A stretch of DNA of 64,000 bases. Origin: Vogesella sp. XCS3. GTDB taxonomy: Bacteria; Pseudomonadota; Gammaproteobacteria; Burkholderiales; Chromobacteriaceae. Shown piece after piece: positions 1 through 63,328 of the stretch; within the stretch, counting starts at the first letter, position 1; each line of letters opens with the position of its first letter. Position numbers and translations under genes: made by a program. The DNA is taken from the NCBI RefSeq assembly GCF_020616155.1, contig NZ_CP085530.1:263501-327500 (forward strand), given 5' to 3'. The notes below the pieces were generated by a model. That model had not been told where the DNA came from and did no database searches. It was given only the letters and a program-made list of their open reading frames with translations.

Positions 1-315
1 CCGCCGCGCTGCGCCTGTTTTGCCGGCTGGCGCTATGAAATGGACAGCTACAAACTGTTGGCCGCAGATGGCAGCGAACGCACGCTTAGCGCCGGTGAGG
101 GCCAGATGCTGCAGCGCTTTCTGGAGCGCCCCAACCGCGTGCTGCCGCGCGAGCAGCTATTGGGCCAGGACGATATTTCACCCTACGACCGCAGCATCGA
201 CGTGCGCATCTCGCGCCTGCGCCGCAAGCTGGAAGACGACAGCTACAACCCGCGCCTGATCAAGACGGTGTACGGCGCGGGCTATCTGTTTGTCAGCAAG
301 GTGGACTGGGAGTGA
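1..315 (+). CDS. OmpR/PhoB-family response regulator, C-terminal DNA-binding domain (5' end outside the window)
   Basis: This is the 3' part of a two-component response regulator. The frame is open from base 1, so the receiver domain lies upstream of the window. The visible 104 residues form a complete winged-helix effector domain: an antiparallel sheet strand beginning FAGWRYEMD, a helix around PREQLL, the DNA-recognition helix SIDVRISRLRRKLE, and the wing ending TVYGAGYLF. These are the usual landmarks of OmpR/TorR-type regulators, which bind DNA when an upstream Asp is phosphorylated by a sensor kinase. The partner kinase and the target genes cannot be seen here. A copy of the GTTGGCCGCA word lies inside it at 57-66, read as Leu-Ala-Ala. 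Confidence 0.9.
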   Translation, partial: PPRCACFAGWRYEMDSYKLLAADGSERTLSAGEGQMLQRFLERPNRVLPREQLLGQDDISPYDRSIDVRISRLRRKLEDDSYNPRLIKTVYGAGYLFVSKVDWE

Positions 316-438
316 TGCCGTGCTGCCGGGCTAGGCGCTGCCAAACCGTGCTGGCAGGGGCCGCCTGCTGCGCCCGGTTTTTTGTGCATCGCCGCCGGCC
401 CAGCGCCGCTGCAGCAAAAATAGCGTTAACAGGCGCTA
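316..438. repeat. Partial copy of the GTTAACAGGC repeat element
   Basis: The spacer between two convergent genes carries sequence related to the element at 59528-59797 (read on the opposite strand there). Shared blocks include AAACCGTGCTGGCAGG near 349, GCTGCGCC followed by GGTTTTT near 368-383, and CAAAAATAGCGTTAACAGGC near 415-434. The end of the repeat (complement of CTA at 436-438) provides the stop codon of the downstream minus-strand dehydrogenase gene. Only one clear end is present, so this looks like a degenerate or half copy. Confidence 0.6.
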
Positions 439-1476
439 GCGTACCGGCAGGGTATGGCCCTGGGCCGCGCTGGCGCTGGCCAGCTCGATCAGCTGCATGA
501 CATGGATAGCCTGGCTGACGGGCACAGGGTTGGCCGCACCATCCAGAATGGCCGCCGCGACGCCCGCGTAGTAGTGGCGGTAGTCACCTGCCAGCATCGG
601 TACCGCGTGGCCGTGCTCCTGGCCATCTTGCTGTACGTAGTGCAGCCCCGGCAGCGGGTCATGGCCCCAGTCGGCGCAGCCGGGTGCCTCGCCCAGTTTC
701 AGCTGGCTTTCCTGCGTGTCCAGGCCGTATTTCACGTAGCTACCCAGCGTGCCGTGCACGGCAAAGCGCGGCGAGCCGCCGCTTACCAGGCAGCTGGCCG
801 ATAGCAGGACGCGCAGGCGCGGGTAGTGCAGGGTGACGTGGAAGTAGTCGGTGGCCACTGCGCCATTGCGCTGCGTGGCCAGGTCGGCGTGCAGCGCGTG
901 CGGCAGGCCGAACAGCTGCAGTGCCTGATCCAGCAGATGCGGCCCCAGGTCGAACCATAGGCCGCCACCGGCTACTGCCGACTCGCGCCAGCGCGCCTGC
1001 ACTTGCGGGCGGTAGCGCTCGAAGCGCGATTCAAACTGGCTGATCTGCCCCAGGGTGCCGCTATCCAGTAGCTGGCGCAGGGTCAGGAAGTCGGCGTCCC
1101 AGCGGCGGTTGTGAAACACCGATAGCAGGCGTTGATGCTGGCTGGCCTGTACTTGCAACTGCCGTGCTTCGGCCAGGGTGGTGGTGAAAGGCTTGTCTAC
1201 CACCACGTGCTTGCCGGCGCGCAGGGCGGCGTCTGCTTGCGGATAGTGGCAATCGTTGGGGCTGGCAATCACCACCAGGTCGATCTCGGGGGTGGCCAGC
1301 GCTTGTGCCGGGTCGCTGACGACCTGTACGCCGGGTTGCTCGGCCAGTAGCTGCTCGCCCTTGCTGCTGACGATGGTATGCAGGCGCAGGCGTGGCTCGG
1401 CGTGAATCAGCGGGGCGTGAAAGGTGCGGCCAGCGTAGCCGTAGCCGATCAGGGCAACATTCAGGTGGGTTTTCAT
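436..1476 (-). CDS. ydgJ: Gfo/Idh/MocA-family oxidoreductase, YdgJ-like
   Basis: This 346-residue protein matches E. coli YdgJ along its length as I remember it. It has an N-terminal Rossmann fold (GYGYAGRTFHAPL near residues 11-23), the NAD(P)-domain segment VVVDKPF with the conserved Lys95, and the C-terminal substrate domain with the FDLGPHLLDQ motif near residue 170. YdgJ and B. subtilis IolW are NADP-dependent inositol (scyllo-inositol) dehydrogenases, so a sugar or polyol dehydrogenase role is likely, but the substrate is not proven by sequence. It stands alone, convergent with the response regulator, and its stop codon is contributed by the repeat end at 436-438. Confidence 0.85.
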   Translation of the reverse strand: MKTHLNVALIGYGYAGRTFHAPLIHAEPRLRLHTIVSSKGEQLLAEQPGVQVVSDPAQALATPEIDLVVIASPNDCHYPQADAALRAGKHVVVDKPFTTTLAEARQLQVQASQHQRLLSVFHNRRWDADFLTLRQLLDSGTLGQISQFESRFERYRPQVQARWRESAVAGGGLWFDLGPHLLDQALQLFGLPHALHADLATQRNGAVATDYFHVTLHYPRLRVLLSASCLVSGGSPRFAVHGTLGSYVKYGLDTQESQLKLGEAPGCADWGHDPLPGLHYVQQDGQEHGHAVPMLAGDYRHYYAGVAAAILDGAANPVPVSQAIHVMQLIELASASAAQGHTLPVR

Positions 1477-1526
1477 GCGCGCTCCACAGTAAGGCAGGCC
1501 GTGTGGCCGGCAGCAAAGCTTGCATG

Positions 1527-1560
1527 AAAAAGCCCGTGTACGCTAGCAAGTACACGGGCT
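1527..1560 (-). terminator. Rho-independent terminator of the REC-domain gene
   Basis: A perfect 11-bp stem (AGCCCGTGTAC at 1531-1541 with GTACACGGGCT at 1550-1560) and 8-nt loop is followed on the minus strand by a T run (plus-strand aaaa at 1527-1530). It lies just past the stop of the gene at 1578-2561. Confidence 0.85.
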
Positions 1561-1577
1561 GGTAATGGGTGCGGGGC

Positions 1578-2561: not shown

Positions 2562-4306
<1,745 letters not shown>

Positions 4307-5451: not shown

Positions 5452-9285
<3,834 letters not shown>

Positions 9286-9336: not shown

Positions 9337-9784
9337 GCTATCTGGCGGTCAGAAACGAATACGGTAGATTGTATACAGAATGTTGCCGTCACATATTCGC
9401 AAAAACGAACCGCATGGTGAACAGTATTGTTCGAAATGGAAAATTAATATCGCCATTTAAGTTGATAAGCGAAAATTTTTAAAACGCCACGTATCTGAAA
9501 ATAACATTCCAAATGCGTAATATTTTGCACTGCAATATATTGCCACGCCATCGTTTTGACTAAAAAACACTAGTAAAATCAAATACTTGCAAAAATATAA
9601 AAAAATGCTGCAAAAAGGTGAAATCCGCCTTTCTTTAAGATTGACAGTCAATTGGATACACCTACATAATCCGCTCGGCTTGTCTTACAGTTGACAGTCT
9701 GTGAGATGCGGCCAACAAGATGGCATATAGAGGGTAAACCCCCGGATAAAGCTATCGGGACCATCAATCTAAGGAGATCCCACC
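9337..9784. other. AT-rich regulatory region upstream of livHMGF
   Basis: About 450 bases between the ast terminator and livH are much richer in A+T than the flanking genes. The sequence TTGACAGTC occurs twice, at 9641-9649 and 9691-9699, exactly 50 bp apart. A TGCGGCCAAC word lies at 9707-9716. A short open frame on the minus strand (9457-9651) has no family resemblance and is not called. The region probably contains the liv promoter and operators. Confidence 0.6.
9641..9670 (+). promoter_or_regulatory. Putative sigma-70 promoter for livHMGF
   Basis: A consensus -35 hexamer TTGACA at 9641-9646 is followed after 16-18 bp by TACATA/CATAAT (9663-9670) as a -10 candidate, leaving a leader of about 110 bases before livH. 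The second TTGACAG copy at 9691 lacks an obvious -10 partner and may instead be a regulator half-site. Confidence 0.5.
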
Positions 9785-13380: not shown

Positions 13381-14154
13381 ATGACCGCACAAACCGATAG
13401 CATGGTGCTGTTGCACCTGCTGCTGGGCTCGCTGATGCTGCCCCCGCTCAATTACCTGCTACTGGCGCTAGCCGGCTGGCTGCTGCAGCGCCGCCGTCCA
13501 AAGCTGGGGCGCAGCCTGGTGCTGTTTGCCGGCCTGTCGGCTTATCTGCTTAGTTTGCCGGTGACCGCCATGTGGCTGAACAGCTGGCTGGAACGCTACC
13601 CGCCATTGTCGCTGGCGCAAGCGCGCACGGCGCAGGCCATCGTAGTGCTGGGTGGGGGCGTGAAGCCGGCGCCAGAGTATGCGGCCAACGTGCTGACGGG
13701 CGCGGCCAACCAGCGCCTGCAATACGGGGCGTGGCTGGCGCGCCAGACCGGCTTGCCGATACTGGTCAGTGGCGGCGCACCGCTGGGCGGGGAGCCGGAG
13801 GCCGCAGTCATGGCGCGGGTACTGCTGCAGAGCTATGGCTTGAGCGTGCGCTGGCAAGAAGGCGCATCGCGCACCACGCTGGAAAACGCCCGCTATAGCC
13901 AGGCGTTGCTAGCCAAAGACGGCATACAGCGTGTCGTGCTGGTCACGCAGGCCTGGCATATGCCCAGGGCGCTGCCATTTTTCACCGCACAAGGCCTGCA
14001 GGTATTGCCCGCCTCTACCGGCTATAGCCGCTACGACGGGCAGGGTCTGGTGCACTGGCTGCCTAGCGGGACGGCATTGCAAGAATGCCACCAGGCGCTG
14101 CGCGAGCTTGTTGGAATGTTGTACTATACAATTCGTCAACAATTAGGAAGCTAG
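13381..14154 (+). CDS. YdcF/ElyC-like membrane protein (DUF218)
   Basis: This protein of about 257 residues has two N-terminal membrane segments (roughly residues 8-35 and 43-62) and a C-terminal DUF218 domain with AIVVLGGGVKPAPEY, LVSGG, GASRTTLENA and LVTQAWHMPRA. E. coli relatives (ElyC, SanA, YdcF) act in envelope integrity and peptidoglycan or lipid-carrier metabolism, but the enzymatic reaction is not settled for the family. The start at 13381 has GGAAA six bases upstream; an in-frame ATG at 13351 would add ten residues. It lies 4 bp before the next gene, suggesting co-transcription. Confidence 0.75.
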   Translation: MTAQTDSMVLLHLLLGSLMLPPLNYLLLALAGWLLQRRRPKLGRSLVLFAGLSAYLLSLPVTAMWLNSWLERYPPLSLAQARTAQAIVVLGGGVKPAPEYAANVLTGAANQRLQYGAWLARQTGLPILVSGGAPLGGEPEAAVMARVLLQSYGLSVRWQEGASRTTLENARYSQALLAKDGIQRVVLVTQAWHMPRALPFFTAQGLQVLPASTGYSRYDGQGLVHWLPSGTALQECHQALRELVGMLYYTIRQQLGS

Positions 14155-14158
14155 AACC

Positions 14159-14911
14159 ATGAAAACCGGTGCACTGATTATTGGGGACGAGCTGCTGTCC
14201 GGCAAACGCCAGGACAAGCATATGCAGTCGCTGATCCGTATGTTGGCCGCACGCGGCATGAAACTGGCGTGGGCAGAATACCTGGGCGATGACCCGGCGC
14301 GTATCGAAGCTGCGTTGCGTCGTGCCTTTGCCAGTGGCGACCTGGTGTTCAGCTTTGGCGGTATCGGTGCCACGCCGGACGACCACACCCGCGCTTGCGC
14401 CGCCGCCGCGCTGGGCGAGCCGTTGGCCGTGCACCCCGAAGCGCGCGCCTTGATAGAAGGGCGCTTTGGCGACGAAGCCTACCCGCACCGCATCCACATG
14501 GGTACCTTTCCAGCCAGTGCCAGTATTATCCCCAACCCCGTGAACCAGATTCCCGGCTTCAGCTGTGGCCATGTGCACTTTGTGCCGGGCTTCCCCAATA
14601 TGGCCTGGCCTATGGTGGAGTGGGTGTTGGATACGCACTACCGCCAGCTGTTCAGCGATAGCCCGGACATAGAGCGCGGCTGTATTGCGCTGGATGCGCG
14701 CGAGGGTGACCTGATCAGCCTGATGCAGGACTTTGTCGCCCGCTACCCGGCGCTGCGCCTGTCCAGCCTGCCCAGCTTCGGCAACGAGCGCATCGCCCAG
14801 ATGCACATCGAGTTCGGTTTTAGCGGCCAGCCTGCGCTGGTGGATATCGCGCTAAGCGAATGGCAAAAGGCGCTGCAGGCCAAAGGCTATACCGTGCAGC
14901 CCAAGGCCTGA
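14159..14911 (+). CDS. Molybdopterin-binding (MoCF) domain protein related to the CinA N-terminus
   Basis: The 250-residue product starts TGALIIGDELLSGKRQDKH and carries the MoCF/MoaB-like core with FSFGGIGATPDDHTR, the loop shared by MoaB, MogA and the N-terminal half of CinA. It lacks the CinA C-terminal nicotinamide-nucleotide amidase domain. Stand-alone proteins of this kind are widespread and have no firmly assigned reaction. The start has AGGAAG nine bases upstream. The gene is followed directly by the inverted GTTGGCCGCA pair. Confidence 0.75.
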   Translation: MKTGALIIGDELLSGKRQDKHMQSLIRMLAARGMKLAWAEYLGDDPARIEAALRRAFASGDLVFSFGGIGATPDDHTRACAAAALGEPLAVHPEARALIEGRFGDEAYPHRIHMGTFPASASIIPNPVNQIPGFSCGHVHFVPGFPNMAWPMVEWVLDTHYRQLFSDSPDIERGCIALDAREGDLISLMQDFVARYPALRLSSLPSFGNERIAQMHIEFGFSGQPALVDIALSEWQKALQAKGYTVQPKA

Positions 14912-14927: not shown

Positions 14928-14954
14928 GGTTGGCCGCATGACCTGCGGCCAACC
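14928..14954 (+). terminator. Hairpin formed by an inverted pair of GTTGGCCGCA words
   Basis: GGTTGGCCGCA (14928-14938) and TGCGGCCAACC (14944-14954) form a perfect 11-bp stem around the 5-nt loop tgacc, 16 bases after a stop codon. No strong T run follows, so termination would be inefficient or Rho-assisted. In Neisseria, uptake words are often found as just such inverted pairs downstream of genes, where they serve as terminators. Confidence 0.65.
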
Positions 14955-15227: not shown

Positions 15228-16286
15228 ATGTTCACATTCGATTTTTCCCGTCTGGCCGCCATTGGCCTGACGCCAGTTTTACTGCAAAACCTGTTACAGC
15301 AAGCACGGTGCGACGGCAGCCTGTTTCGTGTAAGCGCGGTGCACCGCGATGCCGTCTTGCTGCACGATGGCGAGCAAGAGCGCCGTGGCCGGCTAGCCAG
15401 TAGCCAGTGGCAAACCCTGCAGGCCGAAGATGGCCTGGCCGTGGGCGACTGGGTGCTGGCTGCCTGCGACCCCGCCGGCGACTGGTGGCTACAACAGCGC
15501 CTGGCACCTGTTAACGCGCTACTGCGGCGTAATAGCCACGGCCAGCGCCAGCGCATTGCCAGCAATATTGATACCGCACTGCTGGTGATGGGGCTGGATG
15601 GCGATTTCAATCTGCGCCGGCTGGAGCGCTTTGTCAGTATGGTGCAGGCGGCCGATATTACGCCGGTGATCGTGTTGAGCAAGGCCGACCAGTGTGCCGA
15701 CCCGCAAGCCAGCATGCAGGCAGTACGCCAGCGCCTGCCTGCCGCCATGACAGTGCTGGCGCTAAATGGCACCGATGCGACAAGCTGCGGCCAACTTGCC
15801 CCGTGGCTGGGGCAGGGGCAGACGCTGATTGTGCTGGGCAGCTCGGGTGTGGGTAAATCCACGCTCAGCAATACCTTGCTGGGGGAGGCCTGCCAGCAAA
15901 CCGGCGCGGTGCGGGCTGACGATAGCCGCGGCCGCCACACCACCACAGCGCGTAGCCTGCACCGGCTGCCAGGCGGTGCCTGCCTGATCGACACCCCAGG
16001 TGTGCGCACCTTGCAACCAGACCTGGACGAGGCGGCACTGGCAGACAGCTTTGACGATATCGCTCGTCTGGCAAAACAGTGCCAGTTTCGCGATTGCCAG
16101 CATCAGCACGAGCCGGGTTGTGCCGTGCGCCCAGTGGTAGACGCCGACCGTTTGCACAATTATTTCAAGCTATTGCGCGAGGCGCGCCGTGGCGAGGAAA
16201 GCTTGCTGCAACGCAAGGCGCAGCAGGCAGTGTGGAAACAGCGCAGCAAGGCCATGCGGCAAAAGCAGAAGCTGCTGCGTGATTGA
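15228..16286 (+). CDS. rsgA: Ribosome small-subunit-dependent GTPase A
   Basis: This 352-residue circularly permuted GTPase assists late 30S subunit maturation. An OB-like N-terminal domain (about 30-100) precedes the G motifs in permuted order: G4 LSKAD (150-154), then G1 GSSGVGKST (204-212) and G3 DTPG (255-258), with a C-terminal zinc-binding knuckle at C285, C290, a His (292 or 294) and C298. The start is put at 15228, the first ATG giving the usual N-terminus, although the ribosome site there is weak; the frame is open upstream to 15042. A bidirectional terminator follows. Confidence 0.92.
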   Translation: MFTFDFSRLAAIGLTPVLLQNLLQQARCDGSLFRVSAVHRDAVLLHDGEQERRGRLASSQWQTLQAEDGLAVGDWVLAACDPAGDWWLQQRLAPVNALLRRNSHGQRQRIASNIDTALLVMGLDGDFNLRRLERFVSMVQAADITPVIVLSKADQCADPQASMQAVRQRLPAAMTVLALNGTDATSCGQLAPWLGQGQTLIVLGSSGVGKSTLSNTLLGEACQQTGAVRADDSRGRHTTTARSLHRLPGGACLIDTPGVRTLQPDLDEAALADSFDDIARLAKQCQFRDCQHQHEPGCAVRPVVDADRLHNYFKLLREARRGEESLLQRKAQQAVWKQRSKAMRQKQKLLRD

Positions 16287-24606: not shown

Positions 24607-24806
24607 GTCAATTGAGCATCAAATTAAAGCAAGTGCTTGGTTTTTTCCATCCTGCATGTTGGCCGCACGCGGAAAACACTGTTCTTGTGGCGGTAGTGGT
24701 ACAGCCGGGGGCGTACTGCAATCGATTGCTCGCCCGGCTTTGATGCGTGGTTACTGCCTGGTGGCAAGGGTGGGGGCGGGCTATGCCGCCCCAGGTGGTT
24801 TTCTGC

Positions 24807-27094: not shown

Positions 27095-27232
27095 GCGGTC
27101 TCCTGTATGGCTGGGCGGGTGGGCTGTCTGGCCGGGTGTAGGGTGGTGCGGCCAACTCAGGTCATGATGATGCCATTCATGCTGCGGTGTCTACGCCACA
27201 GCGCGCCGTGTCGGGCTTGAAATGACTGCCTT

Positions 27233-29790: not shown

Positions 29791-29828
29791 GCCCCGCGCG
29801 GGCGGCCGGGGTTGGCCGCAGGCAGCAG

Positions 29829-47321: not shown

Positions 47322-48158
47322 ATGTCGGTAGGGCATTACGAAAACTTTCCGGTGGGTTCCATCCTGCTGCCACGGCGCATGCGCCGGGCGGTACACGCCA
47401 TCTACCACTTTGCCCGCTACGCCGACGATATTGCCGACGAGGGCGACGCGCAGCCGGCACAAAGGTTGGCCGCACTGCAGGCGCTACGCGACGAGCTGGG
47501 CCGTATCGAGGCCGGGCAGGCGCCGCAGACGGCGCTGATGCAGCGCCTGGCGGGGGTCATCGCCGAGTACACGCTGCCGCTGGCGCCGTTTTACGACCTG
47601 CTGTCGGCGTTTAGCCAGGACGTGGAAAAAACGCGCTACCAGAATTTTGCCGAGCTGGTGGACTACTGCCGCCGTTCGGCCAACCCGGTGGGGCGGCTGA
47701 TGCTGCACCTGTACGGCGAGCACGACCCGCGCAGCGTGGCCATGTCGGACGGCATTTGCACCGCGCTGCAGCTGATCAACTTCTGGCAGGATGTAGCGGT
47801 AGATTGGGACAAAGGCCGCGTGTATATCCCGCAAGAAGACCTGGCGCGCTTTCGCGTGGCCGAGTCTCAGATCGCCGCGCGCGACGCCGGCGGCGTGTGG
47901 CCCATGCTGATGGACAAAGAAGTAAAACGTGCGCTGGCCATGCTGGAAGCCGGCTCGCCGCTGGCGCTGAAGCTCAAGGGCCGCCTGGGGCTGGAGCTGC
48001 GCATGATCGTGCTGGGTGGCGAGCGCATACTGAAAAAGATTCACGACGCTCGTGGCGATGTGCTCACACAGCGCCCGGTGCTGGTGTGGAAAGACTGGCT
48101 GTACATTATCTGGAAGGCGTTTAGCGCGCCGTACAGCAAAAAGAGGAGGCGGGCGTGA
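47322..48158 (+). CDS. hpnC: Squalene synthase-family protein HpnC
   Basis: This protein of about 278 residues belongs to the trans-isoprenyl diphosphate synthases of the squalene/phytoene type. Its motifs are RRAVHAIYHFARYADDIADEG (first Asp-rich region) and LINFWQDVAVDWDKGRVYIP (second). HpnC hydrolyses/rearranges presqualene diphosphate to hydroxysqualene in the three-enzyme HpnCDE route. The ATG at 47322 is preferred; a GTG nine bases upstream is possible. It heads the run hpnC-hpnD-hpnE with 4-bp overlaps. Confidence 0.9.
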   Translation: MSVGHYENFPVGSILLPRRMRRAVHAIYHFARYADDIADEGDAQPAQRLAALQALRDELGRIEAGQAPQTALMQRLAGVIAEYTLPLAPFYDLLSAFSQDVEKTRYQNFAELVDYCRRSANPVGRLMLHLYGEHDPRSVAMSDGICTALQLINFWQDVAVDWDKGRVYIPQEDLARFRVAESQIAARDAGGVWPMLMDKEVKRALAMLEAGSPLALKLKGRLGLELRMIVLGGERILKKIHDARGDVLTQRPVLVWKDWLYIIWKAFSAPYSKKRRRA

Positions 48159-49000: not shown

Positions 49001-50289
49001 CCCCACGCATTGCCATTATCGGTGCCGGCTGGGCCGGGCTGGCGGCAGCCATCGAGCTGGCGCCCGCGGCCCGTGTGGTGCTGTACGAGGCCGGCAAAGC
49101 CGCAGGCGGGCGGGCGCGGCGCGTGCCGCTGGGTGGCATGGCGCTGGATAACGGCCAGCACATCCTGATCGGCGCCTACCGTGAATGCCTGCGCCTGATG
49201 CGCACCGTAGGCGTGGATGTAGACGCACAGTTGGCCGCACAGCCGCTGGTGTGGCAGCAGGTAGACGGCATGGCCATGCGCTGCCCGGCCTGGCCGGCGC
49301 CGTTGCACCTGCTGGCGGGCCTGCTCACCGCCCGTGGCCTGCGCTGGCGCGACAAGCTGGCGTTGGCACGGCTGTTGACCTGGCTCAGGTGGCAGCGCTG
49401 GCAAATCGGGCAAGATGCGCCGGCTCAGGCATGGTTGGCCGCACACGGCCAGAGCGAGGCGCTGCTGCAGCGTTTCTGGCAGCCGCTGATTCTGGCCACG
49501 CTCAATACGCCGTCGGTGCAGGCATCCATGCAGCTGCTGGCTAATGTGCTGCGCGACAGCCTGGGTGCGCCGTCGGCGCGTGACAGCCAGCTACTGCTGC
49601 CCCGTGTGGATCTCTCTGCGCTGTTTGTCGACCCCGCGCTGCAATGGTTGGCCGCACAGGGCGTGGCTACCCGGCTGGGCCAGCGCGTGGCCGCGCTGCA
49701 GCCCGAAAACGGTGGATGGCGCGTGGATGGCGAGTATTTCGATGCCGTGCTGGTGGCGGTAGCGCCGTACCACGCCGCCGCCTTGCTGGATCATGCGCCG
49801 CTGACAGCACTGCTCAAGGCATGGCAATACCAGCCGATAACTACCCTGTACCTGCAGTTTGAGGACAGGGTGCGGCTGCCCGCCGTGATGACCGGCCAGG
49901 CCAGCGGTATCGGCCAATGGTGGTTCGACCGCCAGGCATTAAGCGGCGAGCCGGGGCTGGTGTCGGTGGTGATCAGTGCCGACGGCCCGCACGCCGCGCT
50001 GGCGCGCGACGCGCTGCTGGCGGCGGTGCTGGGCGAAATGCAGCGCCATGTGCCGGATTTGCCGCCGCTGAAACAGCATTGGCAGATTACCGAGCAGCGC
50101 GCTACTTTTGCGGCCAACGTTAGCCTGGCACGCCCGGCAGTGCGACTTGGCGTAGAATCCGCCTATCTCGCGGGCGACTGGCTGTGTGCCGACTACCCGG
50201 CCACACTGGAAGGGGCTGTGCGCAGTGGTGTGACAGCCGCCCGAACCCTCATGCAGGACTGGACTAAAAAGAATGACGCAAACGTTTGA
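48997..50289 (+). CDS. hpnE: Hydroxysqualene dehydroxylase HpnE (FAD-dependent)
   Basis: This 430-residue flavoprotein reduces hydroxysqualene to squalene. It starts with the dinucleotide fold IAIIGAGWAGLAAAIEL (GAGWAG at 9-14) and the GGRARR motif, and ends with YLAGDWLCADYPATLEGAVRSGVTAARTLM, the usual C-terminal FAD contact of amine-oxidase-like desaturases. The start is taken as TTG at 48997, overlapping the hpnD stop (TTGA), since it gives the canonical N-terminus. Three GTTGGCCGCA words lie within 430 bp (49230, 49434, 49647). No squalene-hopene cyclase is in the window. Confidence 0.88.
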   Translation: MTPRIAIIGAGWAGLAAAIELAPAARVVLYEAGKAAGGRARRVPLGGMALDNGQHILIGAYRECLRLMRTVGVDVDAQLAAQPLVWQQVDGMAMRCPAWPAPLHLLAGLLTARGLRWRDKLALARLLTWLRWQRWQIGQDAPAQAWLAAHGQSEALLQRFWQPLILATLNTPSVQASMQLLANVLRDSLGAPSARDSQLLLPRVDLSALFVDPALQWLAAQGVATRLGQRVAALQPENGGWRVDGEYFDAVLVAVAPYHAAALLDHAPLTALLKAWQYQPITTLYLQFEDRVRLPAVMTGQASGIGQWWFDRQALSGEPGLVSVVISADGPHAALARDALLAAVLGEMQRHVPDLPPLKQHWQITEQRATFAANVSLARPAVRLGVESAYLAGDWLCADYPATLEGAVRSGVTAARTLMQDWTKKNDANV

Positions 50290-51756: not shown

Positions 51757-53127
51757 ATGGCAAAACTCAAAACGCAATATCAATGCGGCGAGTGCGGTGG
51801 CACCTCGCCCAAATGGCAAGGCCAGTGTCCGCACTGCGGCGCCTGGAACAGCCTGGCCGAAACCGTGGCCACCCCGCCTGCTGCTGCGGCCAACGCGCGC
51901 TTCCAGAGCTGGACTGCGCAAACGCAGCCGGTACAGCAGCTGTCGCAAGTACAGGCCGCCGAAGTGCCGCGCGAATCGTGCGGTATCGAAGAGCTGGACC
52001 GTGTACTGGGCGGCGGCATCGTGAAAGGTGCTGTCATCCTGCTGGGCGGCGACCCCGGCATTGGCAAATCCACATTGCTGCTGCAGGCGCTGGCGACCAT
52101 CGGTGCCAACCGCAAGGTGCTGTACGTATCCGGCGAGGAATCGCCGCAGCAGATTGCCCTGCGTGCCAGCCGCCTGGCGGTGGATGCCAGCCGCGTGCGG
52201 CTGCTGTCCGAAATCCGCCTGGAAGCCATCATCCCCGCACTGCAGGCCGAAATGCCCGAAGTGGCGGTGATCGACTCCATCCAGACGCTGTATTCCGACC
52301 AGGTGACGTCGGCCCCCGGCTCGGTATCGCAGGTACGCGAGTGCGCGGCGCAGCTGACGCGTATCGCCAAGCAAAGCGGCATTACCATTATTCTGGTGGG
52401 CCACGTCACCAAGGAAGGCTCGCTGGCCGGCCCGCGCGTGCTGGAGCACATCGTGGATACCGTGCTGTATTTCGAGGGCGATAGCCACTCCAGCTACCGC
52501 ATGATCCGCGCCATCAAGAACCGCTTTGGCGCGGCCAACGAGCTGGGCGTGTTCGCCATGACCGACCGCGGCCTGCGTGGCGTGTCCAACCCGTCGGCCA
52601 TTTTCTTGTCCAGCTACCGCGACGACGTGTCCGGCTCCTGCGTGCTAGTGACGCAAGAGGGCAGCCGCCCGCTGCTGGTGGAAATCCAGGCGCTGGTGGA
52701 CGACGCGCACGGCTTCCAGCCCAAGCGCCTGAGCGTGGGCCTGGAGCAAAACCGCCTGGCCATGCTGATGGCGGTGCTGAACCGCCACGCCAGCATTGCC
52801 TGCTTCGACCAGGACGTGTTCCTGAACGCGGTGGGCGGGGTGAAGATCAACGAACCGGCCGCCGACCTGGCGGTGATTCTGGCCATGGTATCGTCGCTGC
52901 GGAACAAGCCGCTGCCCGAGAAACTGGTGGTGTTTGGCGAGGTGGGGTTGTCTGGCGAGGTGCGCCCGGTGGCGCGCGGCCAGGAGCGCCTGAAAGAGGC
53001 CGCCAAGCTGGGCTTCGAGCGCGCCATCGTGCCGGCGGCCAACAAGCCGCGCCAGGACATAGAAGGCCTGGAAGTCATCGCGGTCGAGCGCCTGTCCGAG
53101 GCGGTCGATTTTTGCATTCGTCGCTAA
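51757..53127 (+). CDS. radA: DNA repair protein RadA
   Basis: This 456-residue RecA-like helicase helps branch migration in recombinational repair and natural transformation. It has an N-terminal zinc finger (C10, C13, C24, C27), Walker A GGDPGIGKST (97-106), Walker B VAVIDSIQ, the RadA-specific KNRFG motif near residue 250, and a C-terminal Lon-like domain (GGVKINEPAADLAVILA). Because RadA extends strand invasion of incoming DNA in transformable bacteria, its presence is compatible with, but no proof of, natural competence. Confidence 0.95.
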   Translation: MAKLKTQYQCGECGGTSPKWQGQCPHCGAWNSLAETVATPPAAAANARFQSWTAQTQPVQQLSQVQAAEVPRESCGIEELDRVLGGGIVKGAVILLGGDPGIGKSTLLLQALATIGANRKVLYVSGEESPQQIALRASRLAVDASRVRLLSEIRLEAIIPALQAEMPEVAVIDSIQTLYSDQVTSAPGSVSQVRECAAQLTRIAKQSGITIILVGHVTKEGSLAGPRVLEHIVDTVLYFEGDSHSSYRMIRAIKNRFGAANELGVFAMTDRGLRGVSNPSAIFLSSYRDDVSGSCVLVTQEGSRPLLVEIQALVDDAHGFQPKRLSVGLEQNRLAMLMAVLNRHASIACFDQDVFLNAVGGVKINEPAADLAVILAMVSSLRNKPLPEKLVVFGEVGLSGEVRPVARGQERLKEAAKLGFERAIVPAANKPRQDIEGLEVIAVERLSEAVDFCIRR

Positions 53128-53135: not shown

Positions 53136-53696
53136 ATGAGTGCCAGCCCAGAACAGATAGAAGCCGAGCGCCCCTGGCTGCTGCGCTACGCCCGCGCCCA
53201 GCTGCAAGACCAGGCCGCCGCCGAAGACGCGGTGCAGGAAGCCCTGTTGGCCGCACTGGAGGGGCGCGAGCGTTTTGCCGGCCAGGCCAGCGTGCGTACC
53301 TGGCTTATCTCCATACTGCGCTTCAAGCTGGTGGATACCATACGTCGCCAGCAGCGCGAGGTAGCCACCGACCTGAGCGAAAACACCGACCTGTCCGACC
53401 TGGATGGCCTGTTTGATGGCCAGGGTGCGTGGCAGCAGGCGGTGCGCGCCTGGGGTGTGCCGGAAGAGGGGCTGTTGGCCAAGCAGTTCTGGCAGGTATA
53501 CCAGCACTGCGCGCAGGCGATGCCCAAGCGCACCGCCATGGTGTTTGCCATGCGCGAGGTGATGGATATGGACATCGCCGAGATTTGTCAGAACTTATCG
53601 ATAACAGCGACTAATTGCTCTGTGATGTTGTACCGCGCGCGCATGAGCTTGCGCGAATGCCTTGAGCTACGCTGGTTCCAGAAGGAGGGGGCGTGA
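53136..53696 (+). CDS. ECF-type sigma-70 factor
   Basis: This 186-residue sigma factor has region 2 (AAEDAVQEALLAALEGRERFAGQASVRTWL...RRQQRE) and region 4 (AMPKRTAMVFAMREVMDMDIAEICQNLSIT...RARMSLRECLE) joined by a short linker, with no region 1 or 3. The start at 53136 has TAAGGA seven bases upstream and lies 8 bases after radA. A 58-residue zinc-type anti-sigma gene overlaps its stop. The pair resembles the Neisseria Ecf/MseR module that responds to oxidants, but the target promoter is not visible here. Confidence 0.88.
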   Translation: MSASPEQIEAERPWLLRYARAQLQDQAAAEDAVQEALLAALEGRERFAGQASVRTWLISILRFKLVDTIRRQQREVATDLSENTDLSDLDGLFDGQGAWQQAVRAWGVPEEGLLAKQFWQVYQHCAQAMPKRTAMVFAMREVMDMDIAEICQNLSITATNCSVMLYRARMSLRECLELRWFQKEGA

Positions 53697-54628: not shown

Positions 54629-56689
54629 ATGATGCACACCCTTACCCCCCGAACCCTGCCGCTCTTGGTACTGGCCGCGCTGGCCGGCCCGGCGCTGGCC
54701 GACGTGACCCTGCCCACAGTCACCGTTAGCGCAGACGAGGCCGCTGCTAGCGCCGCCCGCCTGCCGGACGTCACCACCGCCACCCGTACCCGCACGCCGG
54801 CCAAACTGGTACCGCAAACCATCGATAGCGTGAAAACCGAACAGATCACTGCCTACGGCCAGCGCAGCCTCAGCCAGGCGCTGGTCGGCGTGCCGGGCGT
54901 AGACGCCAGCGGCGATACCCGCTTCGATGGCGTTACCATCCGTGGCTTTGGCGCCGGTACCGATATGTATCTGGATGGTTTTCGCGACGACATGCAGTAC
55001 ACCCGCGACCTGGGCAATATTGAACGGGTAGAGGTGCTGAAGGGCCCGGCAGCCGTACTGTACGGCCGTGGCAGTAGCGGCGGCATCGTCAACCGCATCA
55101 GCAAGCGCCCGCAAAAAGGCTTGCCGTCTACCCTCAGCGCCGAAGTGGGCAGCCATGACCGCTACCGCCTGCAGGCCGACCTGAACGGCGAGTGGCGCGA
55201 TGATGTGCGCGTGCGCCTGAACGCCGCGCAAGAAGAGTACGGCAGCTTCCGCAACGGTGTGGAGGGCAGCCGCAAGCTGTTTGCGCCGTCGCTGAACTGG
55301 CGCCTGGCACCGGACCTGAACTGGCTGTTGCAGTACGAATATAACGAGCACACCCGCACGCCCGACCGCGGCATCCCCGGCGTGAACGGTGCACCGGCCA
55401 ATGTGCCGCTGGAAAGCGTGTATAGCGACACCCGCCGCGATAGCATCCACGACGTGTCGCAGTCGCTGCGCTCGCGCCTGAGTTACGACCTCAACGCGCA
55501 GTGGCAGCTGCGTCACCTGCTGGGCCTGATCCGCCTGGATAGCCAGTTCGACAATACCTACGTTACCGGCGTCAGCGGTAACAATGTGAACCGCCAGCGC
55601 TGGCAGCAAGACCTGAAGGCCGACAACCTGCTCAGCCAGACCGAGCTGGAAGGCGAGGTCTACAGCGGCAACGTCAAGCACCAGCTGCTGCTGGGTGTCG
55701 ATCAAGGCTGGCAGGAGCGCAGCCCCAAGCTGTACAACAACGCCAGCACTATCGCTGCGGCCAACCTGTATCGCCCAGCGACCCTTGCACAGTACAACGG
55801 CGCCATGCGCGTCAACAGCGACGCCCAGCACCGCGTGCGCAGCCGCGGCGTGTACGCGCAAGACCAGCTGACGCTGGGCGATTGGCAATTGCTGGCCGGC
55901 CTGCGCCACGACGTGTTCCATGTGAGCAGCCGCCGCGTTGATACCGGCGCCAGCGAGTCGCGCAACAGCAGCAGCCTCAGCCCGCGCCTGGGCGTGGTGT
56001 GGAACGGCCTGCCGGCGCACGCGCTGTACGCCAGCTACAGCAAGACCTTTGCCCCGGTGGGCGGTAGCCTGATCGGCCTGACGCCGGGCAGCCAGGGCAA
56101 TACGCTGGACCCGGAATACACCCGCCTGTACGAAACCGGCATCAAGAGCGACTGGCTGGGCAACCGTGTGGCCACCACGCTGTCGCTGTACCGTCTGGAG
56201 CTGTACAACCGCCGCACCACCGACCCGGCCGACCCCAGCCGCACCATCCTCAACGGCCTGCAACGCAGCGAAGGCGTGGAGCTGAGCGCCCAGGCCCGCT
56301 TGCCGGGCCAGGCCTATCTGCGTGGCGGTGTGGCGGTGCAGGATGCCAGCCTGGTGCGTGCCGAGCCGGCCAACCAGGGCAAGCGCCCGGCCAACGTGTC
56401 CAAGCATAACGGCAGCCTGTTCGTGGGCGTGGACGCCAGCCAGGGCTGGTTTGGCGAGGTGGGCGTTACGGCGGTAGGCAAGCGCTTTGCCGACAGTGCC
56501 AACACCACGGTGCTGCCGGGCTACCAGCGCTGGGACGCCCGCGCCGGCTACCGCCAGAAAGCGTGGGACGCCACCTTGGCGGTGGAAAACCTGAGCGATC
56601 GCCGCTACTTCGTCAGCGCCACCTCCAGCGCGCAGATCATGCCGGGCAACCCGCGCCAGTTCCAGCTGAGCACGCGTTACCGCTTCTGA
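54629..56689 (+). CDS. TonB-dependent siderophore receptor
   Basis: This outer-membrane protein of about 686 residues has a signal peptide (LPLLVLAALAGPALA), the plug domain (QALVGVPGVDASGDTRFDGVTIRGFG, VEVLKGPAAVLYGRGSSGGIVNRISKRP) and a 22-strand barrel ending in the C-terminal Phe of LSTRYRF. The TIRGFG and VLYGRGSSGG segments are typical of ferric-siderophore receptors of the FhuA/FcuA group. Two adjacent ATG codons (54629, 54632) are possible starts, neither with a strong ribosome site. The Fur-like region and neighbour suggest iron control. No siderophore synthesis genes are in the window. Confidence 0.9.
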   Translation: MMHTLTPRTLPLLVLAALAGPALADVTLPTVTVSADEAAASAARLPDVTTATRTRTPAKLVPQTIDSVKTEQITAYGQRSLSQALVGVPGVDASGDTRFDGVTIRGFGAGTDMYLDGFRDDMQYTRDLGNIERVEVLKGPAAVLYGRGSSGGIVNRISKRPQKGLPSTLSAEVGSHDRYRLQADLNGEWRDDVRVRLNAAQEEYGSFRNGVEGSRKLFAPSLNWRLAPDLNWLLQYEYNEHTRTPDRGIPGVNGAPANVPLESVYSDTRRDSIHDVSQSLRSRLSYDLNAQWQLRHLLGLIRLDSQFDNTYVTGVSGNNVNRQRWQQDLKADNLLSQTELEGEVYSGNVKHQLLLGVDQGWQERSPKLYNNASTIAAANLYRPATLAQYNGAMRVNSDAQHRVRSRGVYAQDQLTLGDWQLLAGLRHDVFHVSSRRVDTGASESRNSSSLSPRLGVVWNGLPAHALYASYSKTFAPVGGSLIGLTPGSQGNTLDPEYTRLYETGIKSDWLGNRVATTLSLYRLELYNRRTTDPADPSRTILNGLQRSEGVELSAQARLPGQAYLRGGVAVQDASLVRAEPANQGKRPANVSKHNGSLFVGVDASQGWFGEVGVTAVGKRFADSANTTVLPGYQRWDARAGYRQKAWDATLAVENLSDRRYFVSATSSAQIMPGNPRQFQLSTRYRF

Positions 56690-56695: not shown

Positions 56696-56789
56696 TAGTG
56701 CCCCGTTAACGCACAAGGCCTGCCGGCAATGCCGGCAGGCCTTGTGCGCATCTTGCGGCCAACCTTGCGCCAGGCGTTAACAGGCCCTA
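56696..56789. repeat. Short GTTAACAGGC element with internal 17-bp hairpin
   Basis: This 94-base spacer starts TAGTGCCCCGTTAACGC and ends GCGTTAACAGGCCCTA, an inverted pair of the ends of the 59528 element. Inside are a 17-bp hairpin (GCACAAGGCCTGCCGGC at 56711-56727 with its complement at 56731-56747) and one TGCGGCCAAC word (56754-56763). The right end supplies the emrB stop codon (complement of CTA at 56787-56789). The hairpin could act as terminator for both convergent genes, though it lacks T runs. Confidence 0.6.
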
Positions 56790-58337: not shown

Positions 58338-59486
58338 TTATTCGCTACGGGTATCGATGGTGGCGGTCATCGACAGCCCCACTTGCAGCGGGTGCTGGCG
58401 CAGCTCGGCCGGGTCCAGCGCAATGCGTACCGGTACGCGCTGCACCACCTTGATCCAGTTGCCGGTGGCGTTCTGCGCCGGGATGGTGGCAAACGCCGCG
58501 CCGGAGCCGCCAGCCAGGCCGGCTACCTTGCCGTGGTATTCCACCTCGCTGCCGTACAAGTCGGCTTTCAGCGTGACCGGCTGGCCGATGCGCACGGTGC
58601 GCAGCTGGCCTTCCTTGAAGTTGGCATCCACGTGTACGGCTTGCAGCGGCACTACTGACAACAGCTGGCTGCCGGCCTGCACGCGCTGGCCCAGCTGCAC
58701 CTGGCGTTTGGCCACCACGCCGTCTACCGGGGCGCGGATCACGGTGCGCGCCAGATCCACGCGGGCCTGGTCACGCTTGGCGCGCGCCAGTGTTACTTCC
58801 GGGTTGGTGTCCACGCTGGTGTTACGGGTCAGGGTCTGGTTGGCTTTCAGGCTGCCTTCGGCGGCGCGCAGGTTGGCCGCACTCTGTTTGGCGGCCGCTT
58901 CGGCGGCCTGGTACGCTGCCTCGGCCACGTTCAGCGCACTGCGGGCATTGCTGACTTCCTCGCCGGACACCGAGCCGTTTTTGGCCAGTGCCTGGCGCCG
59001 GTTGTAGTCCAGCCGCGCGCGTTCCAGCTCGGCCTGTGCCGATGCCAGCTGTGCCTGGCTGCGCACCTGCTCGGCAGCGCGGGCCTGGACTTGTGCGCCC
59101 AGACCCTCGTCGCTGGCCAGATAGCCCTGTACGCGGCGCTGGGCGCGCGCCAGCTCGGCTTCGGCCTGCGCCAGCGCCAGGCGGGCGTCGGTATCGTCCA
59201 GCAGCACCAGCACGTCGCCGCGTTTTACCGCCTGGGTATCCACTACGGACACCTGGCGTACGGTGCCGCTCACCTCGGGGGTGAGCTGCGCCATTTCGGC
59301 AGCTACGTAGGCGTTGTCGGTGCTGACATGGTGGGACGCTACCAGGTACCAGTAGCTGCCGTAGGCCAGCGCGCCGACGGCGACCACGCCGCCCAGCAGG
59401 GTAAACAGGGTTTTGCGGCGTGCCGCCGGCTTGGCCGCATCGGCCGGGATGTCTTGCGCGGGCAGGGCTTGGGTGTGTTCGCTCAT
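58338..59486 (-). CDS. emrA: Periplasmic adaptor of multidrug efflux, EmrA-like (HlyD family)
   Basis: This 382-residue membrane-fusion protein has one N-terminal membrane anchor (about residues 27-48), a lipoyl-like half (VSVVDTQAVKRGDVLVLLDDTDARL), a long helical hairpin (about 85-200, rich in Ala, Gln, Arg) and the second lipoyl/beta-barrel half (VIRAPVDGVVAKRQVQLGQRV). It links EmrB with the outer-membrane channel. It follows the NodT gene after a 308-base gap filled mostly by the repeat at 59528-59797. Confidence 0.92.
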   Translation of the reverse strand: MSEHTQALPAQDIPADAAKPAARRKTLFTLLGGVVAVGALAYGSYWYLVASHHVSTDNAYVAAEMAQLTPEVSGTVRQVSVVDTQAVKRGDVLVLLDDTDARLALAQAEAELARAQRRVQGYLASDEGLGAQVQARAAEQVRSQAQLASAQAELERARLDYNRRQALAKNGSVSGEEVSNARSALNVAEAAYQAAEAAAKQSAANLRAAEGSLKANQTLTRNTSVDTNPEVTLARAKRDQARVDLARTVIRAPVDGVVAKRQVQLGQRVQAGSQLLSVVPLQAVHVDANFKEGQLRTVRIGQPVTLKADLYGSEVEYHGKVAGLAGGSGAAFATIPAQNATGNWIKVVQRVPVRIALDPAELRQHPLQVGLSMTATIDTRSE

Positions 59487-59797: not shown

Positions 59798-61225
59798 CTG
59801 GTCGCTACCCAGCGCCTTGGTCAGGGCGATGTCCAGCTGTGCCTGCTGGCTTTGCAGCTGGGTCAGCGTGCGGCGGGCGGCAATCACGCTGTCTTCGGCA
59901 TTCAGTACGTCCAGATAGCTGGCCAGGCCGCCCTGGTAGCGGTCGTGGGTGAGCTCCCACGCCCGTTCGGCCGCCTCGGTGGCCTGCTGGCGCTGTGCCA
60001 GCTGTGCGGCCAACCCTTGCTGGCGGGTGTACGCCTGGGCGATGTCCTGTAGCGCTTGCAGCAGGGTCTGGTTGTAGCTGGCAACGGCGTTGTCGTATTC
60101 GCCGCGAGCACTGCGGTAGCTGCCTTGCAGCGCGTCCTGGCGGAACAGCGGCAGGCTGATGGCCGGGCCGAAACCGGCAATGCCGGAGCCGGCACGGGTC
60201 AGCGCATCCAGCCCCAGGCTCTGCGCGCCGACGTAGGCGCTCAGGTTGACGTTAGGGTAGAAGCCGGCACGGGCAACCTGGACGCGGCTGGCGGCGGCTT
60301 CGGCACGCAGGCGGGCGGCGGCGAGGTCGGGGCGGTGGCCGATCAGGTTGGCCGGCAGCGTGGCCGGTAGCGCCTGGGCCTGGCTGACAGTCAGCGCCGG
60401 GCGTTGCAGTGCCAGGCCGCGGTCCGGCCCGGCACCCAGCAGCGCGGCCAGTGCCTGGCGTTGCAGGGTGATGGCTTCGTCGGCGGCCAGTAGCTCAGCT
60501 TGGGCAGCGGCGCGGCGCGAGGCCGCCTGGGCCACGCTGGCGCGGTTTTCCAGCCCCTGGCTTTCGCGTTCGCGCATCAGGCCTTCGCTCTGGCTGCGTA
60601 CCTTCAGCGCCTGCTGGCAGGCGTCACGGTCGGCAAACAGGCGCGCCAGCTCGGCGTACTGGCTGGCCACGGCGGTGGTCAGCAGCAGCCGGCTTTGCGC
60701 CAGCTCGGCCTCGGCAGCGGCTTGTGCGCTGCTGGCGGCGGCGATGGCGCTGCGGTTCTTGCCCCAGAAATCCAGCTCGTAGCTGACGTCCAGCGCCACG
60801 CGGCTGCTGGTGTTGAAACCCGGCGGCACGAAGGCGGCTGGCATGCCGTTATTCAGGCTCTGGCGCAGGCGGGTGAAGTCGCCGTTGGCGCTGACGCCGG
60901 GCTGCCGGGTGGCGCCGGCCTGCTGTGCCAGGCCTTCGGCTTGCAGCAGACGGGCGCGGGCACTGTCCAGCGACGGCGACTGCGCCAGCGCTTCTTGCAT
61001 CAGCTGGTCCAGCTGCGGGTCCTGATAGCGCTGCCACCAGTGCTCGCCCGCCCACTCGCCGTGGCTGTCCGGCAGCGTCTGCTGGCTTTGCAACTGGCTG
61101 GCCGGCAGCAGGGCGGGGCTGGCGGGCAGGTCGGGAATGCTGGCACAACCGGCCAGCAGGCTGCCGGCACCCAGCAGCAGGGCCAGGCGGGTACGCGCAT
61201 GGAAAGCGGGAAGGGTCTGATTCAT
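59795..61225 (-). CDS. Outer-membrane efflux lipoprotein, NodT/OprM family
   Basis: This 476-residue lipoprotein (LLAGC, lipidated Cys27) is the outer-membrane channel of a tripartite exporter. It has two OEP repeats: QDPQLDQLMQEALAQSPSLDSARARLLQAEG and later HRPDLAAARLRAEAAASRVQVARAGFYPNVNLSA, the family signature. The ATG at 61225 gives a normal lipoprotein signal. It is first in the minus-strand operon NodT-emrA-emrB and divergent from a TetR regulator. The C-terminus ends at ALGSDQ, where the repeat begins; the last residues may have been altered by that insertion. Confidence 0.9.
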   Translation of the reverse strand: MNQTLPAFHARTRLALLLGAGSLLAGCASIPDLPASPALLPASQLQSQQTLPDSHGEWAGEHWWQRYQDPQLDQLMQEALAQSPSLDSARARLLQAEGLAQQAGATRQPGVSANGDFTRLRQSLNNGMPAAFVPPGFNTSSRVALDVSYELDFWGKNRSAIAAASSAQAAAEAELAQSRLLLTTAVASQYAELARLFADRDACQQALKVRSQSEGLMRERESQGLENRASVAQAASRRAAAQAELLAADEAITLQRQALAALLGAGPDRGLALQRPALTVSQAQALPATLPANLIGHRPDLAAARLRAEAAASRVQVARAGFYPNVNLSAYVGAQSLGLDALTRAGSGIAGFGPAISLPLFRQDALQGSYRSARGEYDNAVASYNQTLLQALQDIAQAYTRQQGLAAQLAQRQQATEAAERAWELTHDRYQGGLASYLDVLNAEDSVIAARRTLTQLQSQQAQLDIALTKALGSDQ

Positions 61226-61296: not shown

Positions 61297-61313
61297 GAAC
61301 TGACTGGTTCAGT
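61297..61313. promoter_or_regulatory. Probable TetR operator 2
   Basis: GAACTGACTGGTTCAGT contains two overlapping inverted repeats (GAAC/GTTC and ACTGA/TCAGT). It lies 12 bases upstream of the tetR-type gene start and shares AACTG with operator 1. Confidence 0.5.
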
Positions 61314-61325
61314 ATTGGGGTGAGC

Positions 61326-61943: not shown

Positions 61944-61957
61944 GCCGGGACGGGAAT

Positions 61958-61999
61958 AAGCACAAGGGCGGCCTGCGCATGCAGGCCGCCCTTGTGCTT
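61958..61999. terminator. Very stable bidirectional hairpin
   Basis: The 19-bp arms AAGCACAAGGGCGGCCTGC (61958-61976) and its complement (61981-61999) surround the loop gcat. It separates the convergent TetR and EF-hand genes. The core GCACAAGG...CCTTGTGC is shared with the hairpin at 56711-56747. Confidence 0.75.
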
Positions 62000-62014
62000 G
62001 GTAAAGCATGTGGC

Positions 62015-63121
62015 TCAGGCGGTAAGGTCTACCTGCGAAATCAGCCCGGCCTGGCCGCCCTCGGTCAGGTAGACGCCGGCTTTGCGCATCTGCGCCACGG
62101 TCTGGTTGGCCGCATCGGTATGGCGGAAGGTGGCGTCCACGTGCGGCAGCAACAGCGCGCCGATGCCCACGTCCATCAGGCTGGTCAGCTGATCCTTGCC
62201 GTCTTGCTGGCCCTGCCACAGTTGCAGGCGGGCAAAGAGCGGGTCGCCCTCGTCGATGGCGCCGTTGCCGTCGCTGTCCAGTGCGGCCAGCTCGCCAAAG
62301 CCGTCGCCGCTTTGCGGGCCGAACAGCTCGTTTTGCTGGTCGATCTTGCCGTTGCCGTTACGGTCCAGCGCCAGCCAGCCGCCGTTTTTTGGCACCGGCA
62401 GCGTGTTTTTCTTGCCGTCGTTATCGATGTCGAACTGTACGGTGGCGCCGGACAGCGTACCGGCGTCGTGGCCCAGGCTGATCATCAGCGGGTCGCGCGC
62501 GGCCGCGCCGAAGTTCAGCGTTTCTGTGCTGCTTACCGAGAAGCTGCGTTGCAGGCTGACGTCCAGCTGGAAGTTCAGGCTGCGGCCGTCGCGGGTGGTG
62601 ATGTTGCCGCTGGCGGAAAACTGCAGCGATTCCTGCTCGCTATAACGCGTTTCGCGCTCGATGCGCAGGCCCCAGTCCTCGTTGCCTTGTTCGCGGCGTG
62701 GCGTGCCACGCTCTTGTTGCTGCTCGCCCTGCATGGCCTGATCTTGCGCGGCCGCTTGCAGGTGTTGCTTGTCCAGCGGGTACACGTCGGACAGGTCGAT
62801 ACGGATACCGAAAGTAGACTCCAGGATATTGCGCAGCAGCGACAGTGTGGGGCTGAGGTCGGCTTCCAGCGGGCTATCGCTTGCCTGCACGTCGCTTGCG
62901 CCCTGGCTGGCATTGCTCTGGGCCAGGCTTTGGCCAATGGCGGTTGCCGGGCTGGCTTGCTGCGCAGCGGCGCGGCGGCCGCTTTCGCTGATGTCCACCT
63001 GGTCTTGCGGGGCGTTTTGCCGCGCGCCTTCCTGCCAGAAGGTAATGCGCTGCTGGGTGCTGTGGGTTTGTTCCAGGTAGTGCTGGCTGCTCAGGTCTAG
63101 CGACAGGCTATCGATTCTCAT
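62015..63121 (-). CDS. EF-hand-like calcium-binding protein of unknown function
   Basis: This 368-residue protein has no signal peptide. The first 160 residues are Gln/Ser/Ala-rich and probably flexible; a middle beta-rich part (about 160-245) includes SVSSTETLNFG. The C-terminal third carries three Asp-rich loops: FDIDNDGKKN, LDRNGNGKIDQQNELFG and LDSDGNGAIDEGDPLF, followed by RLQLW and a DGKDQLTSL stretch. The same arrangement occurs in RTX-type secreted proteins, where it binds calcium. Here it stands alone, without RTX nonapeptides or a type I secretion operon. Export and function are unknown. Confidence 0.72.
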   Translation of the reverse strand: MRIDSLSLDLSSQHYLEQTHSTQQRITFWQEGARQNAPQDQVDISESGRRAAAQQASPATAIGQSLAQSNASQGASDVQASDSPLEADLSPTLSLLRNILESTFGIRIDLSDVYPLDKQHLQAAAQDQAMQGEQQQERGTPRREQGNEDWGLRIERETRYSEQESLQFSASGNITTRDGRSLNFQLDVSLQRSFSVSSTETLNFGAAARDPLMISLGHDAGTLSGATVQFDIDNDGKKNTLPVPKNGGWLALDRNGNGKIDQQNELFGPQSGDGFGELAALDSDGNGAIDEGDPLFARLQLWQGQQDGKDQLTSLMDVGIGALLLPHVDATFRHTDAANQTVAQMRKAGVYLTEGGQAGLISQVDLTA

Positions 63122-63235
63122 GGCGGTTCTCCTGCTGGCCTGTCTGCGCCGCAGGGGGCAAGAGAGGCGATTCGATGCGCTTATATCGGCAGCATGGCGG
63201 CAGGGCTTAGCCTTTTTTGATAGCAGGTGTTAATA

Positions 63236-63266
63236 AAAACAGCCGCTACCCAAGGGGTAGTGGCTG
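63236..63266 (-). terminator. Terminator of the UbiB-family gene
   Basis: On the minus strand CAGCCACTACCCC and the complement of 63240-63251 form a 12-13-bp stem with a 2-base loop, followed by TTTTTATT. It lies about 60 bases past the gene end. Confidence 0.85.
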
Positions 63267-63328
63267 CGCTTTGCGGAGACGCAAAATCAATATGGATCAG
63301 TGGGTTGTGGCAAGGTTGGCCGCAGGGG

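Follow-up and report, generated by a model that had tools for sequence, protein, structure and literature searches.

In a 64,000-nt stretch of the genome of Vogesella sp. XCS3 (the window, meaning the whole stretch that was analysed), we found that the 10-nt word GTTGGCCGCA recurs far above chance, and we consider it very probable from its sequence properties that AG-GTTGGCCGCA is a ComP-read DNA uptake sequence (DUS) of the genus Vogesella, forming a variant group outside the Neisseriaceae. What we computed directly are the words, with their spread, strand symmetry, scarcity in mobile DNA and conservation, and the receptor's homology; binding, uptake preference, competence and the pairing of this ComP with GTTGGCCGCA are what we infer from them. 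In the proposed mechanism, a ComP-type minor pilin on the type IV pilus would bind word-bearing DNA in preference to other DNA, ComEC and retraction of the pilus would take that DNA in, and homologous recombination would then spread and maintain GTTGGCCGCA, while some sister genera would read the related words GTTGGCCGAA and GTTGGCCGAG.

Counted together with its complement, GTTGGCCGCA ranks first among all 10-mers in the window, whose GC is 62.5%. Our recount agreed with the original prediction, made from the window alone, in giving 46 exact copies, 29 on the plus and 17 on the minus strand (first at 57-66, last at 63315-63324), far above the mean of 0.41 and maximum of 3 in 100 dinucleotide shuffles of the window; this strand imbalance is not significant (p = 0.10). 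Across the whole genome (3,889,382 bases in two contigs) we counted 2279 copies, 1173 and 1106 by strand, compared with 11 copies of the reversed word, so that the word does not fall to chance frequency outside the window and the DUS-like reading proposed at the outset is supported. The predicted spacing of one copy per 1.4 kb also held for the window, but its placement within the Neisseria range was too loose: the Neisseriaceae are described as carrying one DUS per 400-1100 bp (PMC7371117), denser than the window and than the Vogesella genome at about one per 1.7 kb.

Site anatomy was studied in a chromosome sample of 704 kb (33 stretches, two of them with N), which contained 444 copies, or 0.63 per kb, versus 4.9 expected under an order-3 model. 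Every stretch held at least one copy, the strands were used 226 and 218 times, and the spacing was only slightly more even than random (coefficient of variation 0.87). Ahead of the word, the favoured base was A at -3 and -2 (0.43 and 0.53) and G at -1 (0.58), a preference and no rule, and little conservation extended beyond about three flanking bases; the word is best written AG-GTTGGCCGCA, AG being the prefix of the AG-DUS. One-mismatch variants at inner positions were mostly near chance, whereas the last letter was tolerant (C 77, G 84 and T 31 versus 5-9 expected) and the first somewhat so (C 24 and A 11 versus 3-6 expected). This tolerance at the word ends resembles that of the Neisseria 10-mer DUS, for which the cheapest changes are given as those at +1, +9 and +10 (PMC3630211).

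Genes for site placement were called with a simple gene caller of our own (coding fraction 0.79). Of the 444 sites, 314 lay inside called genes (169 sense and 145 antisense), 127 between genes and three straddled a boundary, giving an intergenic density of 0.85 versus a genic density of 0.57 per kb. Among 26 pairs of neighbouring copies no more than 40 bp apart, where about 11 pairs of any kind were expected, 25 were inverted; 20 of these 25 were intergenic and 20 had a called 3′ end at most 80 bp away. Neisseria DUS likewise form inverted pairs at gene ends. The pairs in Vogesella probably also serve as transcription terminators, a function that we infer.

Mobile DNA was poor in the word. The plasmid-like contig C2, seven of whose nine scanned proteins had Pfam matches (helicases, a topoisomerase, T2SSE/F-type proteins and Fic), carried four copies in 160 kb versus 101 expected at chromosome density, an expectation not corrected for its lower GC (about 0.52). 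A 20-kb chromosomal stretch with tailed-prophage genes for tail sheath, capsid, portal and terminase (G000:C1:1500001-1520000, L148) had a single copy. The word is also conserved between species, a check that had been proposed: against aligned Vogesella DNA, 52 of 95 words of this genome were identical in place versus 26.5 expected from GC-matched 10-mers, and 52 of 68 words of the relatives were kept at the aligned place in this genome versus 23.1 expected, although these counts are not independent because the same sites were compared with several relatives.

Related words in sister genera

Among the genomes counted, GTTGGCCGCA was abundant only in Vogesella. All 13 Vogesella genomes carried 1871-2895 copies each, compared with 8-58 in 48 genomes of nine other genera of the family; in a sample of 160 genomes of the order, only the three Vogesella were high and the other 157 had at most 52. 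The host had been correctly guessed as a member of the Chromobacteriaceae, and a count in related members of that family had been proposed; what had been missed is that some sister genera carry variants that differ from GTTGGCCGCA in the last two letters. These emerged when samples of sister genera were searched without a preset word, which returned words related to GTTGGCCGCA that whole-genome counts confirmed. We refer to GTTGGCCGCA of Vogesella as the CA form, to GTTGGCCGAA as the AA form and to GTTGGCCGAG as the AG form.

The AA form was abundant in eight of 61 family genomes (G010 1368, G036 579, G037 2168, G038 1245, G045 1851, G046 1104, G047 183 and G048 893), with 8-78 copies in the other 53, and in a sample of 399 genomes of the order, 13 of them from the family, it was high only in G010 and G038, the next genome having 47. 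In G047, none of the 183 copies fell in the 27.8 kb sampled. The AG form was abundant in two family genomes (G034 1940 and G035 1590) and intermediate in three (G036 165, G040 92 and G043 85), the other 56 having 13-67. The 10-mer AGGTTGGCCG was among the top words in the samples of G034, G038, G045 and G046 too, an AG-prefix preference. As a positive control, the word finder recovered known DUS from two Neisseriaceae, AGGCCGTCTGAA in G187 and AGGCAGCCTGAA with AGGCTGCCTGAA in G224, and the known DUS GYCGTCTGAA was counted 2004-4425 times in nine genomes of genus g53, eight times in the genome of the window and 9-19 times in four other family genomes. Samples of five of the 19 genomes of genus g3, all six of g8, two of the four of g4, two further ones of g2, and G147 and G254 showed no prominent DUS-like word; since 20-40 kb were sampled per genome, rarer words could be missed.

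With its favoured AG prefix, GTTGGCCGCA stands in register with the Neisseria AG-DUS dialects and thus looks like a distant dialect. That its letters differ from the Neisseria DUS and its dialects had been predicted and is correct, the core being CCG; the shared register had gone unnoticed. AGGTTGGCCGAA, the AA form, agrees with both AG-simDUS and AG-mucDUS in 9 of 12 positions, a value reached by 239 of 20000 shuffles, and going from the AA to the CA form replaces A by C at +9, just as going from kingDUS to king3DUS does (PMC3630211). The words resemble Neisseriaceae DUS further in being 10-12 bases long, present in thousands of copies on both strands, paired in inverted orientation at gene ends, rare in mobile DNA, divided into dialects by genus and accompanied by a ComP relative. 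They differ in the CCG in place of CTG, in the host family, here Chromobacteriaceae, and in the A at +10, which is present in the Vogesella form and absent from the AG form of genus g5. The uptake signal sequence (USS) of the Pasteurellaceae is another dense, strand-balanced uptake word, with letters unlike those of GTTGGCCGCA; it differs also in its proposed receptor, ComN (PMC12616744).

Among the matches listed, open-licence papers on the words or on uptake sequences in these genera, supplements apart, yielded no report of these words. A literature match for CTCGGCCAAC was set aside because it is a primer used to clone comP of N. subflava. Of five genomes surveyed in 2013 and then placed in the Neisseriaceae, some are now in the Chromobacteriaceae. 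For these five (Laribacter, Lutiella, Pseudogulbenkiania and two Chromobacterium) that survey states that there was no obvious DUS (PMC3630211).

Some samples contained further words. In G010 (L081-L082), GTTTGCCGAA, one letter off GTTGGCCGAA, is a second abundant word (nine copies in 40 kb versus 0.15 expected), and this genome perhaps combines two dialects, as in Simonsiella. In genus g4 (L102-L103), TCAGGGTAAA/TTTACCCTGA reached seven copies in 40 kb versus 0.05 expected. AACCGGAATG, AGATTGGCAC and ATCGCTGAGC were over-represented in 40 kb of G048 (L098-L099), where they may belong to a repeated element.

A candidate ComP receptor

The original prediction had pointed to a ComP-like minor pilin, and the genome encodes one. 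Among several pilins of the ComP_DUS family, the candidate receptor is a 138-aa precursor encoded outside the window at about G000:C1:3106142-3106558, which scored 32.4 bits against PF16732 (ComP_DUS; cut-off 27.3). Its three best matches in the PDB were the ComP entries 5hz7, 2nba and 2m3k, both by sequence search (E 9.3e-8 to 7.6e-6) and by profile search (2m3k 2.3e-11). The same entries led a fold search with the predicted model of a close protein from Vogesella L13 (pLDDT 91.7): 5hz7 (E 5.1e-6, TM-score 0.67), 2nba (4.4e-4) and 2m3k (8.4e-3). By sequence and predicted fold, this pilin is a ComP relative nearest to the Neisseria DUS receptor. Two other ComP_DUS pilins were rejected as receptor: the strongest Pfam match (L003, 81.7 bits) had PilE 4noa as its best PDB match and no ComP entry among the matches listed, and the second (L004) had no ComP match.

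Vogesella ComP shares the WPxLP stretch and the C-terminal Cys pair with the ComP structures in the PDB; it differs from Neisseria ComP in having no counterpart of the C76-C125 disulfide, and because of this it is without the DD region as defined. In Neisseria ComP, the DD region with its two disulfides is tied to DNA binding (PMC4906244). In all 28 Chromobacteriaceae ComP rows, drawn from the 61 genomes, the C-terminal pair accounts for every Cys of the globular part (five rows have further Cys in the N-terminal helix); all seven rows from Neisseria (g53) have four Cys. Within the Neisseriaceae, the ComP of G224, the genome with kingDUS and simDUS, has two Cys, the C-terminal pair only, and that of G147, where no word was found, has four in another arrangement. 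Relative to the ComPs of sister genera, that of Vogesella carries additional residues behind WPxLP, and the segment leading to its last strands is shorter; the ComPs of G038 and G045 also carry additional residues there. In G224 (L173), the reading frame before comP starts ComEA-like (helix-hairpin-helix) by eye.

A search with Vogesella ComP matched 52 of the 61 family genomes, and all 23 that bear an abundant word matched at E 2.9e-16 or better. With a ComP profile run over the 399 order genomes, members of the family scored at least 125 bits and Neisseriaceae with a listed match about 90-116, while the unrelated family f41 reached 108 bits and PilE-like pilins about 92. In a tree of 41 chosen pilins, a branch (95/66) set off the Vogesella ComPs and another (100/99) those of Neisseria, and G010 stood beside wordless g2 sisters (93/96), which suggests that the word was lost there; the order of dialect changes is a matter of conjecture because 16 of the 38 inner branches are open. 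Overall, the distribution of words suggests that dialects change and get lost among close genera. ComEC, the sole uptake component outside the pilins that we searched for, is encoded in the genome.

Weighing the readings

Several results weigh against a ComP-read DUS. Positions +6..+8 are CCG in all three forms, GTTGGCCGCA, GTTGGCCGAA and GTTGGCCGAG, and CTG stands there in all eight published dialects as given in PMC3630211, and likewise in PMC12061091 and PMC7371117; a 2024 paper gives CTG again for seven further candidate Neisseriaceae words (PMC11316581). The 9 of 12 match of AGGTTGGCCGAA is modest, and the Vogesella form reaches only 8 of 12, as do 1760 of 20000 shuffles. Vogesella ComP lacks the second DD-region disulfide. 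Of the 38 family genomes in which no word form is abundant, nine were unmatched and 29 had a ComP match (E 3.1e-16 or worse), so that having a ComP-like gene is not enough to predict a word, and the ranking of matches partly reflects kinship because the query came from Vogesella and the wordless genomes are further off. ComEC was also found in 10 of 14 control genomes, including E. coli. Finally, with replication direction taken from the GC skew of each stretch, the word showed a weak polarity, 246 copies on the GC-skew-positive strand versus 198 (p = 0.026). We therefore call the Vogesella word a DUS-like variant and do not file it in the CTG group, because of its CCG core and one-disulfide ComP.

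The most serious alternative, though rather unlikely in our estimate, keeps the uptake sequence and assigns its reading to another protein, such as a GspH-like pilin, or to that protein and ComP together. Such a gene (L005:845-1417; Pfam GspH, own copy) overlaps comP by one base, its last being also the first of comP, and a prepilin-like gene lies directly 5′ of comP in nine of nine Vogesella tree rows and in ten of ten named loci, largely the same genomes (seven named Vogesella species, 'Beta proteobacterium L13' and two metagenome-assembled genomes labelled Neisseriaceae; a short Bacteroidaceae match was dropped). Besides the missing DD disulfide, this alternative is favoured by the FimT pilin, which is described as mediating DNA uptake elsewhere (PMC8897410). 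Against it, seven of the nine rows with AA or AG words have a related word and no pilin-like neighbour before comP within the distance checked (only G045 has one, the neighbour in G047 not being pilin-like), and the in-register words of Neisseria have ComP as their receptor.

Readings without uptake fare worse. An over-represented word of the HIP1 (highly iterated palindrome 1) type or one linked to methylation has precedents in cyanobacteria; we think it improbable here, since GTTGGCCGCA is no palindrome, keeps the DUS register and AG prefix, occurs beside a receptor homologue and forms inverted pairs at gene ends. The same pairs, together with the low counts on contig C2 and in the prophage stretch and the changed last letters in sister genera, speak against a polar chromosome motif such as Chi or KOPS (FtsK-orienting polar sequences). 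The word is dense and non-palindromic with a slight excess on one strand, as such a motif might be; however, polarity is 246:198 at most and the strands are nearly even in sample and genome, the balance from which the original prediction had argued correctly, and we regard a polar motif as very improbable. We give as little credence to a terminator or repetitive extragenic palindromic (REP)-type family spread as an element: most inverted pairs (20 of 25) are close to a gene end, yet only 50 of the 444 sites belong to such pairs, 314 are inside genes, and no longer conserved unit surrounds them. Codon or peptide usage (Leu-Ala-Ala or Ala-Ala-Asn) can practically be discounted, for although 245 of the 314 genic words lie in the two frames reading LAA or AAN, 127 sites are intergenic and denser there, inner one-mismatch words stay mostly near chance and the word is not abundant in sister genera.

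A wider history appears quite possible, though short of probable. DUS reading by ComP may predate the split between Neisseriaceae and Chromobacteriaceae, and CTG and the DD region may both be dispensable for it. A one-disulfide ComP would at first have read an ancestral GTTGGCCGAA-like word; this word would have changed its +9 letter in Vogesella and its +10 letter in g5 and disappeared from several genera, the DD region would have arisen later, within the Neisseriaceae, and the GspH-like pilin would co-recognise the word in Vogesella. Studies of Neisseria take it that the CTG core is strictly conserved and that the DD region plays a central part in DNA binding (PMC12061091, PMC4906244). Natural CCG words beside one-disulfide ComPs offer contrasts that would make DUS reading directly testable outside pathogenic Neisseria, and genus-level sorting of DNA by uptake words would extend to the Chromobacteriaceae.

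Copies along the window

All copies in the window are exact matches to GTTGGCCGCA. Those on the plus strand lie at 57..66, 529..538, 2767..2776, 3770..3779, 5552..5561, 7471..7480, 8784..8793, 14242..14251, 14929..14938, 18838..18847, 19760..19769, 20643..20652, 22530..22539, 24202..24211, 24658..24667, 29811..29820, 31926..31935, 36910..36919, 37447..37456, 42861..42870, 42976..42985, 47465..47474, 49230..49239, 49434..49443, 49647..49656, 53246..53255, 58872..58881, 62105..62114 and 63315..63324. Minus-strand copies lie at 7384..7393, 8463..8472, 9707..9716, 13680..13689, 14944..14953, 15786..15795, 26083..26092, 27147..27156, 29040..29049, 33520..33529, 34612..34621, 34887..34896, 50109..50118, 51885..51894, 55756..55765, 56754..56763 and 60005..60014.

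The copies at 14929..14938 (plus, left arm) and 14944..14953 (minus, right arm) form an inverted pair, 14929..14953, that begins 17 bases past the end of a called plus-strand gene stopping at 14911; it is stem-like and no T run follows it. Just 5′ of this pair, 14159-14911 encodes a protein with a CinA-like (competence/damage-inducible) domain, with a score below the NCBI cut-off. Elsewhere on the chromosome, a word-poor stretch (G000:C1:700001-720000, L129; three copies, GC 0.548) had only two genes called. Of the 50 proteins called in the window, 20 were scanned and all but one had a match; they are products of ordinary chromosomal genes, including astC, astD and astB (arginine catabolism), dxs, valS and radA.

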